Positions 84-4,038 of a DNA stretch of 64,000 nucleotides are shown one piece after another. The notes below the pieces were generated by a model that saw nothing but the letters and a program-made list of their open reading frames with translations, was not told where the DNA came from and made no database searches. The DNA comes from Serratia marcescens subsp. marcescens ATCC 13880 (GTDB taxonomy: Bacteria > Pseudomonadota > Gammaproteobacteria > Enterobacterales > Enterobacteriaceae): assembly GCF_017299535.1 (NCBI RefSeq), contig NZ_CP071238.1:4464001-4528000 (forward strand). Direction: 5' to 3'. Position 1 is the first letter of the stretch. Each line of letters opens with the position of its first letter. The position numbers were made by a program, and so were the translations under genes.

Positions 84-221
84 CGTTGACGGTGTGGTCG
101 CCATCTGTGGCGATAAATCCAGGATGCGCCAATCACGCGTGCCGGCATGTCCGGCCGCTCACTGACGATGCAACGTGATATTATTCCCCATCACTTCTCT
201 GCCATCAGATAAGGCCCCTGC

Positions 222-662
222 ATGATCGTCAACTGCGACCACGACAACCTCGACGCCTGGCTGGCGCTGCGCTCGGCGCTGTGGCCCACCTGCCCGTTGG
301 AAGAGCACCGCGCGGAGATGCGCGAAATATTGGCTTCGCCGCACCACACCGCGTTTATGGCGCGGGGGCTGGACGGCGCTTTCGTTGGCTTTGCCGAGGT
401 CGCTCTGCGCCACGATTACGTCAACGGCTGCGAATCGTCGCCGGTGGCGTTTTTGGAAGGGATTTATACCGCCGAACGCGCCCGCCGCCAGGGCTGGGCG
501 GCCCGCCTGATCGCGCAGGTGCAGGAGTGGGCGAAGCAACAGGGGTGCAGCGAGCTGGCGTCGGATACCGATATCGCCAATCTGGACTCCCAACGCCTGC
601 ATGCGGCGCTGGGCTTTGCAGAAACGGAACGGGTGGTGTTTTACCGAAAAACGCTGGGCTGA
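222..662 (+). CDS. aac(6')-Ic: aminoglycoside 6'-N-acetyltransferase AAC(6')-Ic
   Basis: This 146-residue GNAT-fold enzyme acetylates the 6'-amino group of aminoglycosides such as tobramycin, netilmicin and amikacin, using acetyl-CoA in the cytoplasm. The acetyl-CoA loop is RRQGWAARL at residues 88-96, preceded by the beta-strand FLEGIYTAERA, and the family's C-terminal LHAALGFAE follows at 126-134. The sequence matches my recollection of AAC(6')-Ic, the chromosomal enzyme of S. marcescens, apart from a few N-terminal substitutions, so it is probably an allele. It is intrinsic rather than plasmid-borne, and in this species usually weakly expressed. The last codons lie inside a 65-bp sequence that is repeated 1.85 kb downstream. 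Confidence 0.93.
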   Translation: MIVNCDHDNLDAWLALRSALWPTCPLEEHRAEMREILASPHHTAFMARGLDGAFVGFAEVALRHDYVNGCESSPVAFLEGIYTAERARRQGWAARLIAQVQEWAKQQGCSELASDTDIANLDSQRLHAALGFAETERVVFYRKTLG

Positions 663-712
663 TCAGGCACCTTGTGTTGCCGCTGATGCGCCAACTGCTC
701 GGCGCGCAGCAG
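648..712. repeat. left copy of the 65-bp direct repeat bracketing the insert
   Basis: This segment holds the final 15 bases of aac(6')-Ic, its stop codon included, plus about 50 bases matching the 3' end of the HPP gene, which is otherwise located past 2515. The first 22 bases (648-669) are identical to 2500-2521. The rest matches 2522-2565 with a few substitutions and a one-base gap. The HPP-like part is a fragment with no gene attached here, so this copy is a relic of the original aac/HPP junction. Confidence 0.9.
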
Positions 713-961
713 CCTCTTCCCCACCAATATTAACCAAACCCCATCCCCATCCCCATCCCCATCCAGCGTTTGCCGTGGCACTCTCACCGGCACAGCAACC
801 GAATCGGTCGCCCATCAACATAAGGCTATCAAATACAATCATAATGAGCGTAATTGGTTCTATTTTGATTGGATTTGTCGCCTTACTTTATTTTGAAAAA
901 CTTATAATGGGGACATCACATACCCGCAGATACCGCTCAATAGAACAGGAGATTGGCATTT
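713..961. other. AT-rich non-coding left part of the insert
   Basis: The sequence from the end of the left repeat to the PEBP gene changes abruptly from GC-rich to AT-rich after about 770, unlike the flanks. It presumably carries the promoter of the PEBP-AraC pair. The only open frame is the short one at 844-987. There is no integrase, transposase or inverted terminal repeat. Confidence 0.6.
739..762. repeat. four tandem CCCCAT units
   Basis: Four perfect copies of the hexamer CCCCAT lie in non-coding sequence just inside the left repeat. Such short tandem repeats can vary in copy number by slippage. No promoter spacer role is evident because the nearest downstream gene starts 200 bases away. 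Confidence 0.8.
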
Positions 962-987
962 ATGAAACTGACCAGCCAAAGCTTTAA
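844..987 (+). CDS. possible 47-residue single-span membrane peptide
   Basis: An ATG-started frame encodes a hydrophobic N-terminal segment (roughly SVIGSILIGFVALLYF) followed by a charged tail ending ETDQPKL. The topology is that of a small inner-membrane protein. Against it: no good ribosome binding site lies close to 844, and its end overlaps the start of the PEBP gene by 26 bases in another frame. It could be real, a remnant of a larger membrane protein, or chance. I do not recognise the family. Confidence 0.25.
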   Translation: MSVIGSILIGFVALLYFEKLIMGTSHTRRYRSIEQEIGIYETDQPKL

Positions 988-1603
988 AGAAGGAGAGTTC
1001 ATTCCCGCTGAGTTCGCCTTCGCTATCCCCGATGCCGCCAATCGTGTCGCTTTATCGGGAAATCGCAACCCCCATCTCGCCTGGAGTGAAGTGCCTGCAG
1101 GCACGCAGTCTTTCGTGATCGTCTGCCATGATCCCGACGTGCCAAGCCGCGGTGATGATGTGAATCAAGAGGGTCGGGTTGTGCCCGCATCGTTGCCGCG
1201 CGTTGATTTCTTTCACTGGCTGCTGCTGGATATTCCGGCCAGTACCGTGGAAATTGCGGCGGGCTCTCAATCGGACGGCGTAACGCCGCGTGGCAAAACC
1301 GGGCCAAACGCCCCTTCGGCCTATCGCCACGGCATCAATGACTATACCGGTTGGTTTGCCGCCGACGAGCAGATGAAGGGGGAATATTACGGTTACGATG
1401 GCCCATGCCCACCGTGGAACGATACGTTAGTTCATCATTATATTTTCACGGTTTATGCGCTTGCTACCCACGGTTTGGATGTACAAGGGCCGTTGACAGG
1501 GGCTAATGTGAATGCCGCCCTGGCGAAGGCGCCAGTGCTGGCCCAGGCAAGCCTGACAGGCCTTTATAGCCTGAACCCTAACGTAGCATCAACGGCGAAA
1601 TAA
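962..1603 (+). CDS. YbhB/YbcL-family phosphatidylethanolamine-binding-like protein
   Basis: This 213-residue protein belongs to the PEBP / Raf-kinase-inhibitor-like family. It shows the family's ligand-pocket signatures in order: DPDVP at 57-61, FHW at 84-86, GYDGPCPP at 144-151 and HHYIFTVYAL from 158. The cellular role of bacterial members is unclear. It lacks a signal peptide, so a cytoplasmic location is likely. The ATG at 962 is preceded by AGGAG at 947-951 and is preferred to a TTG at 953 that has no room for a ribosome binding site. The AraC-type gene begins 19 bases downstream, which suggests one transcript. The gene lies within the repeat-bracketed insert and is lower in GC than its neighbours. 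Confidence 0.88.
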   Translation: MKLTSQSFKEGEFIPAEFAFAIPDAANRVALSGNRNPHLAWSEVPAGTQSFVIVCHDPDVPSRGDDVNQEGRVVPASLPRVDFFHWLLLDIPASTVEIAAGSQSDGVTPRGKTGPNAPSAYRHGINDYTGWFAADEQMKGEYYGYDGPCPPWNDTLVHHYIFTVYALATHGLDVQGPLTGANVNAALAKAPVLAQASLTGLYSLNPNVASTAK

Positions 1604-1622
1604 TCGCATGAAGGAGTCGAAT

Positions 1623-2501
1623 ATGAGCCGAACCGGTTCCTTCGGATCAGTGCGAACCAGACGCGAGCCGGGTGTGAAGCTTTTGCATTGGCACTCTCCG
1701 TCGGGGGCTCCGGTGTCGAGGCGCCGCTTGTGCGGAGTGTGCCAGCCGACATTGAAACGCCAGCTGTACACGCCGCAGTTCGTCTTCCATGAAGCGACGG
1801 TCTTGCTGATCGTGGCGGGCCAACTCGGTATCACATCCGCTTCACAACATTTGTCTCTGGAGACCCCCGGCGAACTGCTCCTGGTTCCCCCCAACACCCG
1901 CGCAGATTTAGTCAAAACGCCGGGCGATATCGATCGGCCTTTTCGCTCGATACTCCTGACGCTGTCGGCAGAACTGCTGGATGTCTTTCACCGAACCCGG
2001 CAGGCTTCACCCCCTATTCCCCCTAAAGATGACGCGTGGAAAACGCTGCCTCTGGACGAAGACCTGTCGGCGACGTTTTATCACGTGATTGAAAGCGTGG
2101 AAAAACAGGAAATCAGTGATATTCGCCTGCAATACCGCCTTCTGGACTTTTTGACCGCGCTGGCCGAACGGGGACATTTTTTTACGCATTTACCATTGGA
2201 TAGCCCATCACAGCGCCTGCGCACCTTGATTTTTGAGGCTCCGGAACAAAACTGGACAGCAGAAACAGCGGGAAAAACGTTAGCGATGAGCCCGGCAACG
2301 TTGCGGCGGCGTCTTGCCGCCGAACAGACACGCTTCGAAGATTTGCTGATAGACGTCCGTATGCATCACGCCATGATGTTGCTTCAAACCACCCGATGGG
2401 ATATGGCCCGCATTGCAGAGGCCTGCGGTTACAAATCCAGAGCGCGTTTTAGCGAACGCTTTCAAAAGCGCTTTGGCTACGCGCCTTCCGCCATCCGATA
2501 A
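1623..2501 (+). CDS. AraC/XylS-family transcriptional regulator
   Basis: The 292-residue protein has an N-terminal cupin-like sensing region of the AraC_N type and a C-terminal double helix-turn-helix from about residue 205. The first recognition unit is around AGKTLAMSPATLRRRL and the second around MARIAEACGYKSRARFSERF, ending GYAPSAIR as in typical family members. The ATG at 1623 is preceded by AAGGAG at 1611-1616 and is preferred to the ATG at 1608. It probably controls itself and the PEBP gene, but the effector is unknown. Its TAA stop lies at the junction with the right-hand repeat (2500 onward), so the insert boundary is within bases of the gene's end. Confidence 0.88.
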   Translation: MSRTGSFGSVRTRREPGVKLLHWHSPSGAPVSRRRLCGVCQPTLKRQLYTPQFVFHEATVLLIVAGQLGITSASQHLSLETPGELLLVPPNTRADLVKTPGDIDRPFRSILLTLSAELLDVFHRTRQASPPIPPKDDAWKTLPLDEDLSATFYHVIESVEKQEISDIRLQYRLLDFLTALAERGHFFTHLPLDSPSQRLRTLIFEAPEQNWTAETAGKTLAMSPATLRRRLAAEQTRFEDLLIDVRMHHAMMLLQTTRWDMARIAEACGYKSRARFSERFQKRFGYAPSAIR

Positions 2502-2565
2502 AACGCTGGGCTGATCAGGCAATCTTGCTTTGCCGCTGATGCGCCAGCTGCTCGGCGCGCAGCAG
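2500..2565. repeat. right copy of the 65/66-bp direct repeat bracketing the insert
   Basis: This copy contains a fragment of the aac(6')-Ic tail (coding for KTLG and the stop) with no gene attached, followed by the genuine 3' end of the HPP gene. Together with 648-712 it shows that the aac/HPP junction exists twice. The 1.8-kb PEBP-AraC segment lies between the copies. Confidence 0.9.
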
Positions 2566-3231
2566 GATCTCCTGCAGATCGTCCTCGTCGATATCGAACA
2601 GATCTCCCTCCATCAGCGCCTCGTGCAGATCGGCGCGGGTAATGGAAACGGCATCGATCGGCAGATTGGCCGGCTTGGCCTCCGCCGGCGCCAGCGCGTG
2701 CGGGTAGCGCCGCCCGGCCAGGTTATTGAACAGAATGGCCAGCGCCGCCAGCAGCACCGAGTTCAGCAGCACCGGGTACAACACGAAGTGGTAGCCCATC
2801 TGGTGAATGCCGGGGCCGCCGAGGATGGCGGTCAGCGCCACCGCGCCGCCGGGTGGATGCAGGCAGCGCAGCTTGAACATCAGGCCGATGGCCACCGCCG
2901 CCGCCGCGCCGCAGGCCAGGCCGGGATCGGGGATCAGCAGACCGGCGCTGACGCCCACCGTCGCCGCCAGCGCATTGCCGCCGACGATCGACCAAGGCTG
3001 CGCCAACGGGCTGTTGGGCACGCCGAACAGCAGCACCGCCGAAGCGCCCATCGGCGCGATAAACCACAGGTTCACCTCGCCCAAAATAAAGTGGCTGATC
3101 CAGCCGGCGAGCATCAGCCCCAAACCGGCGCCGACGCTGGAAATCAGCATCTCTCGTTTGCCCACCGCCAGCGGGTGCGGCCATAGGCGCGCGCATCCCA
3201 CTTTCACCCGTTCTATCCACTGCGTCTTCAT
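2515..3231 (-). CDS. HPP-family integral membrane protein
   Basis: The 238-residue protein has about five to six hydrophobic segments (around 29-49, 53-72, 82-100, 104-120 and 150-172). It carries the family's namesake motif, LHPPGGAVALTAILGG, with the HPP triplet at 125-127. The C-terminal 60 residues are soluble and acidic (GDLFDIDEDDLQEILLRAEQ). HPP proteins of plastids and cyanobacteria have been linked to nitrite transport; the role of this enterobacterial branch is not established. The ATG at 3231 is preferred to a TTG three codons upstream. The stop codon lies inside the direct repeat and was probably once directly adjacent to the stop of aac(6')-Ic. Confidence 0.85.
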   Translation of the reverse strand: MKTQWIERVKVGCARLWPHPLAVGKREMLISSVGAGLGLMLAGWISHFILGEVNLWFIAPMGASAVLLFGVPNSPLAQPWSIVGGNALAATVGVSAGLLIPDPGLACGAAAAVAIGLMFKLRCLHPPGGAVALTAILGGPGIHQMGYHFVLYPVLLNSVLLAALAILFNNLAGRRYPHALAPAEAKPANLPIDAVSITRADLHEALMEGDLFDIDEDDLQEILLRAEQLAHQRQSKIA

Positions 3232-3351
3232 GTTACCCAATACGGCTCAATTCACGTGTTGGCAACAAATATATCACATCATCCTGAAGGAACTCACGGC
3301 GCCGTAAACCGCGCCGCCCAAGAACTTTTAGGCTAACAGATTGATTTTTAG

Positions 3352-4038
<687 letters not shown>

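Follow-up and report, generated by a model that had tools for sequence, protein, structure and literature searches.

A PEBP-AraC gene pair between two copies of the aac(6')-Ic/HPP gene junction in the Serratia marcescens complex

In Serratia marcescens subsp. marcescens ATCC 13880, a PEBP gene and an AraC-family regulator gene lie between aac(6')-Ic, the chromosomal aminoglycoside 6'-N-acetyltransferase gene of Serratia, and a gene encoding an HPP-family membrane protein. The pair is bounded by two copies of one short sequence, and each copy joins the tail of aac to the tail of the HPP gene. The question that this locus raises is how a small gene pair could enter a gene junction, leave both neighbours unbroken and end up between two copies of that junction. 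We have analysed it in the window, i.e., the whole stretch of 64,000 nucleotides from positions 4,464,001 to 4,528,000 of contig NZ_CP071238.1, and in 30 genomes of the genus Serratia, one per species and the window's own (G000) included. A sequence-only reading of the window had described a duplicated junction with a pair of lower GC content between its copies, and the repeat, the genes and the GC difference have all been confirmed.

The locus begins with a complete aac gene (222-662, plus strand), whose product scores 334.6 bits with the NCBIfam exception model NF000021, above its cut-off of 310. The left arm of the repeat (648-712) consists of the last 15 bases of this gene and 50 bases of a decayed HPP tail with a 1-base deletion, and bases of the left type continue 3' of it at 713-720. 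It is followed by a poorly conserved stretch (714-825), in part perhaps a more decayed HPP tail, which is clear only in the homologue of G012, and by the conserved leader of the insert (826-961, plus strand), the presumed promoter/operator of the pair, with a TATAAT at 903-908. The PEBP gene (962-1603, plus strand) encodes a protein of 213 aa (Pfam PF01161, E 1.3e-34) that reaches 82 bits with TIGR00481, whose cut-off is 57.75, and thus belongs to the YbhB/YbcL family. The gene of the AraC-family regulator (1623-2501, plus strand; 292 aa; PF12833, E 3e-15) probably starts at ATG 1623 rather than at 1608; an AAGGAG site lies upstream of ATG 1623, and this start agrees with that of protein P0001, which is 98% identical. 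If it is correct, only 19 bases separate the two genes. In the right arm (2500-2565), the last 15 bases of aac are fused to the AraC stop codon (2499-2501), which the first bases of the arm overlap, and the intact tail of the complete HPP gene follows (2515-3240, minus strand; PF04982, E 4.5e-49). A glutathione transferase (GST) gene (3403-4038, plus strand; NF011693, 328 bits, cut-off 150) forms the conserved right flank. The GC content of the insert (713-2499) is 54.6%, compared with 64.6% for aac, 66.4% for the HPP gene and 61.1% for the window, and 1.3% of the blocks of 1,787 bases, taken in 200-base steps and including those that overlap the insert, are as low in GC as the insert.

The two copies of the direct repeat align over 66 columns with 92.4% identity and one 1-base gap, and have exact runs of 22, 17 and 18 bases in common. 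When the whole genome of the strain (5.16 Mb) was searched with each copy, scoring 40 first-look candidates per query, only these two copies were found, with E values of about 1e-20 or better; the next-best match covered 26 bases (E 5.8e-4 and 2.6e-5 for the two queries). The repeat is therefore not dispersed, and membership of a common repeat family, which the sequence-only reading had named as an outcome that would speak against it, was excluded. That reading had also put the length of the duplication at 65 bp. As a description of 648-712 and 2500-2565 in the window this stands, but it does not hold for the original length: the left copy of G012 can be aligned with the HPP side for about 112 bases, and therefore the duplication was originally longer and 65 bp is what decay has left of it in the window. 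When the left arms of the window and of G001 were compared singly with the HPP gene, nothing convincing appeared beyond about 72 bases.

Between the window and G012, the stretch 714-825 differs at 39 of 108 positions (8 of 101 between the window and G001), and the leader next to it differs at 4 of 136 positions from G001 and at 4 of 136 from G012. A near-invariant leader beside decaying DNA fits a functional promoter region, although the promoter scan of 100-3500 returned no full sigma-70 site. For a core dS of about 0.1, the divergence of 714-825 from G012 is too large for its age. The decayed part of the left arm also contains four tandem CCCCAT units (739-762), which are not expanded in G001 or G012.

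The locus was matched in 26 of the 30 Serratia-genus genomes, and the four with no match to it (G025-G028) are genomes of 1.5-3.6 Mb. We have used as reference an rpoB tree of 25 of the 30 genomes, from which G007 and G025-G028 were left out, and in which the S. marcescens complex corresponds to a clade of 12 species (100/100). The whole arrangement is present in three genomes, G000, G001 and G012, hereafter the carriers. In eight of the twelve species of the complex (G009, G010, G011, G013, G021, G022, G024 and G029), aac and HPP are both complete and lie end to end at a single junction, and the two stops meet as TGA/TCA, as they do in the right copy of the window. These are the empty sites that the sequence-only reading had predicted, so that its other adverse outcome, a lack of any genome with an empty site, was excluded as well. 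They bear out its view that the two genes stood end to end before the insert, as does G023, a more distant Serratia in which the genes adjoin with 78-80% identity. Across 2500-2570, the window's right copy and the junction of G029 are identical (71 of 71 bases). The twelfth species of the complex, G014, has aac followed by a 116-bp HPP tail and contains neither the insert nor an intact HPP gene. In its HPP-GST interval (L157), HPP is reduced to this 116-bp tail and a small internal scrap. Only the end of aac could be recognised beside HPP at the DNA level in G004, G006 and G020, and HPP occurs with no recognisable adjacent aac in ten genomes. A pattern scan of viral_contigs gave one contig (L162) with an empty junction.

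The rpoB tree pairs each carrier with an empty species (G000 with G029, 88/94; G001 with G011, 100/99; G012 with G024, 93/93), and the presence of the insert is therefore patchy within the complex. One genome per species cannot tell loss from repeated gain. The gene trees of the locus are weakly resolved: the aac tree places the three carriers with G010 and G011 in an unresolved group (93/93), and the HPP tree does not group the carriers together. Flank identity was unusable on the left as a measure of recombination tracts, the sequence left of aac varying between genomes.

The sequence of the arms points to a common history of the three inserts. The right junction lies at the identical base in all carriers, where the AraC stop codon TAA runs into the AAAACGC of the aac tail with a few bases in common. 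The motif CTCTTC is common to the three left arms and to the G014 relic, and it is absent from 25 of 25 other HPP gene ends. Together, the identical junction and the common motif would imply one origin. Regarding its age, dS among the three carriers is 0.047-0.097 for PEBP and 0.086-0.117 for AraC, compared with 0.089-0.119 for the GST gene, 0.096-0.121 for a permease gene, 0.078-0.146 for HPP and 0.134-0.187 for aac. For the two insert genes, dN is 0.009-0.023, well below dS. Judged by this comparison, the age of the insert comes close to that of the flanking-gene divergence, and is somewhat lower when PEBP and aac are considered. Since its divergence resembles that of neighbouring core genes and dN is well below dS, the insert is old and seems to have been kept, with conserved proteins.

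As to where the pair came from, its relatives are sporadic. In a sample of 394 genomes from the order, 4, among them the own genome, have a PEBP relative at E<=1e-30. Among the best 80 of the 519 confirmed loci of the PEBP search of genome_contigs, six non-Serratia loci encode proteins with 79-81% identity; one is labelled Pantoea and the other five carry names that we take to be those of Burkholderiales. Within the same best 80 of 519 loci, PEBP is immediately followed by an AraC relative (E<=1e-6) in 16, S. bockelmannii included. The AraC relatives, among the best 120 of 233 proteins, are 98% identical in S. marcescens, 86% in P0002 (jgi, lgn, ena) and at most 66% beyond. P0002, the nearest outside the S. 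marcescens cluster among these best 120 of 233, is a cluster of 67 sequences whose longest contig measures 13.4 kb; such cluster counts, for AraC and for HPP, are numbers of non-redundant sequences and not strain frequencies. This sporadic occurrence makes a horizontal origin of the pair from outside Serratia likely. Similar pairs are also found at other places in Serratia: L083 (2757-4267) encodes one with 77% and 48% protein identity, and G005, G015 and G016 have PEBP-like and AraC-like matches close together (67-73% at the DNA level), and hence such pairs may have entered Serratia more than once.

Phage, viral and plasmid sequences were also compared with the locus. The 50,697 phage records gave no match to the locus, and the AraC scan of viral_contigs gave no relative. 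The locus query was matched by 213 plasmid records, none of them over 80% of the query; 19 of the 20 matches listed concern the HPP part, and the remaining one comes from a Pantoea plasmid with a PEBP-AraC pair of 71% DNA identity. At the protein level, 1 of 72,556 plasmid records matched PEBP at E<=1e-50, with 62% identity; the annotation of the 11.4 kb around it includes neither aac nor HPP. Carriage of the locus by a phage or a plasmid was rejected on these grounds, the phages having no match and the plasmid matches being partial. A near match to the locus is also absent from the E. coli genomes.

Regarding function, the PEBP protein has its domain in common with the YbhB/YbcL (PEBP/RKIP-like) proteins, represented by the E. 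coli YbhB structures 1fjj and 1vi3, and matches them significantly in sequence. It differs from those chains in length, 213 aa versus 159-170, and in being paired with an AraC regulator, and it scores below the cut-offs of the two kinase-inhibitor equivalog models. A review proposes in its title that FT/YbhB proteins are enzymes of small-molecule metabolism, and states that their genes are rarely found in conserved operons; its main text makes no mention of 'AraC' (PMC8793217). The pair may encode a putative small-molecule binding or enzymatic PEBP under the control of its AraC partner.

Taking these data together, we consider a single ancestral acquisition through homology-assisted illegitimate recombination, an insertion with long target duplication, to be the best explanation, and we hold it with somewhat more confidence than doubt. 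A PEBP-AraC operon, probably of non-Serratia origin, would have been inserted a single time at the aac-HPP junction, in an ancestral lineage of the S. marcescens complex. Its right end would have been joined through the few bases that the AraC stop codon has in common with the last aac codons, and its left end inside the HPP tail, so that a target stretch of roughly 100 bases or more came to stand on both sides and both neighbouring genes remained intact. A linear fragment that recombined by homology-facilitated illegitimate recombination is a plausible substrate and route. The left HPP tail, free of selection, would then have decayed, and the operon with its own conserved leader would have been retained. 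The present patchiness could be due to exchange of the locus between lineages through its conserved flanks, i.e., allelic exchange, or to loss. Several observations weigh against this explanation: the left-type HPP tail of G014, with neither insert nor intact HPP, could mean that the relic came first; the sequence of the carriers is similar to this relic, as detailed below; the stretch 714-825 diverges far more between the window and G012 than the rest of the insert; and no donor closer than the 86% of the AraC protein P0002 is known among the best 120 of 233 proteins.

The G014 relic is the basis of a different order of events, which we regard as possible, if clearly less probable than a single insertion. 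HPP would have decayed in a G014-like lineage, the PEBP-AraC pair would have arrived behind this remnant, and recombination with a normal strain would later have restored an intact HPP together with a scrap of the aac tail, so that the apparent duplication is a loss followed by a regain. The relic has left-type bases, and in the left arm of G012 the homology to HPP stops near the place where the relic does. In addition, when the profile of the carriers past the HPP homology was compared with the relic, 4 of 150 shuffles were as good, compared with 30 of 150 for HPP and 48 of 150 for an intergenic control; with the longer segment (72-200), 8 of 150 shuffles did as well against G014 and 61 of 150 against HPP. 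The absence of a group match between this longer segment and HPP speaks against a longer HPP remnant common to all carriers. The likeness to the relic is nevertheless weak (z 2.4, with several comparisons made), and we take it as a hint for this route and no more. Two or more events are needed in place of one, and G014 could equally be a carrier that lost the insert and HPP by deletion. That the locus records a loss and regain, the whole HPP having been recovered by one-sided homologous recombination, is a tentative proposition to which we would give a little less weight still. If it were true, some bacterial target duplications around inserted genes would have been left behind by a repair through regain, and the insertion itself would not have produced them. 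The proposal of recombination with a diverged locus, made from the sequence of the window, is compatible with the left-arm HPP-tail bases, given their absence from the 25 other HPP ends and their presence in the relic.

The patchy distribution could also be explained if the insert had been present in the ancestor of the complex and the empty sites were secondary, arising by recombination between the arms or by replacement from outside. We find this rather unlikely, even though the carriers are scattered and the dS of the insert is close to that of the core genes. In G012, one left-type base occurs in the right arm as well as in the left, which could reflect gene conversion or pairing between the arms, but one base is thin. 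Left-type bases were found in none of the eight empty junctions of the complex, and the precise excision that the earlier reading had envisaged thus found no positive evidence. This absence is weak evidence against excision, which could still have occurred because a crossover within the first 22 identical bases would yield a clean empty site and leave no trace. Nevertheless, eight losses are many, and replacement by empty alleles would presumably be easier than excision. A circle, as suggested in that reading, or a plasmid could have integrated through one crossover in common aac/HPP sequence, but this is improbable. Such an event would give direct repeats of the homologous stretch with diverged arms, and one relative of the pair does reside on a Pantoea plasmid; yet the circle must already have carried an aac tail fused to an HPP tail, backbone genes are absent from the insert, which is only the pair and its leader, and the single plasmid record with a strong PEBP match has neither neighbour annotated around it. 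Nothing here points specifically to a circle. We give least credit of all to a dedicated mobile element or cassette with a long target duplication. The compact pair and its sporadic distribution would suit such an element, but the insert shows neither mark of a transposon or integron-type element: Pfam gave no match to recombinase families for PEBP, for AraC or for another 10 small frames that lie within the insert or cross its ends, and no inverted repeat of at least 16 bases pairing the two ends of the insert was found. The phage records had no match either.

About 2.2 kb left of the window start there is a 50-bp stretch (L146 7766-7815; G000:C1:4461766-4461815) that was matched alone, with 96-100% identity, in 7 of 13 other regions and over 49 bp in an eighth; four further regions have longer but less similar matches that extend across it, and G009 has none. 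ARAGORN places a tRNA-Met gene in six of the regions, and in these the stretch overlaps the end of the gene. From this stretch and the variable sequence left of aac, it is probable that aac borders a tRNA-Met island hot spot.

The locus offers a natural case of how a small foreign operon that lacks its own transposase can enter a conserved gene junction and leave the neighbours unbroken, with carriers, empty sites and a relic state coexisting in one species complex. It implies nothing new for aminoglycoside resistance. We found no literature on this particular junction in a search that did not cover the term aac(6')-Ic, and we do not claim its absence from print. The event adds one more case, clear but ordinary, to a type of change already known from bacterial genomes. 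Insertion with long target duplication has been described in Helicobacter pylori (Nobusato et al., 2000, as cited in PMC1643837 and PMC3031569), with the same elements as here: a gene unit that was inserted, a relative whose site is undisturbed, in our case the single target copy of 8 of the 12 complex genomes, and a long and variable direct duplication, whose 66 columns at 92% in the window and about 112 bp in G012 far exceed the target duplications made by transposases. The H. pylori-type cases, in those citations, often concern restriction-modification genes, whereas here the unit is a PEBP-AraC pair and the left copy is old and decayed. The locus is also similar to the microdiversity loci described in PMC2884548, small variable segments between direct repeats for which illegitimate or homology-assisted recombination is proposed; as given there, direct repeats flank 10-18% of the small variable segments in the surveyed species and 66-94% of these repeats are under 30 bp, whereas the repeat between aac and HPP is longer and both neighbouring genes are intact.
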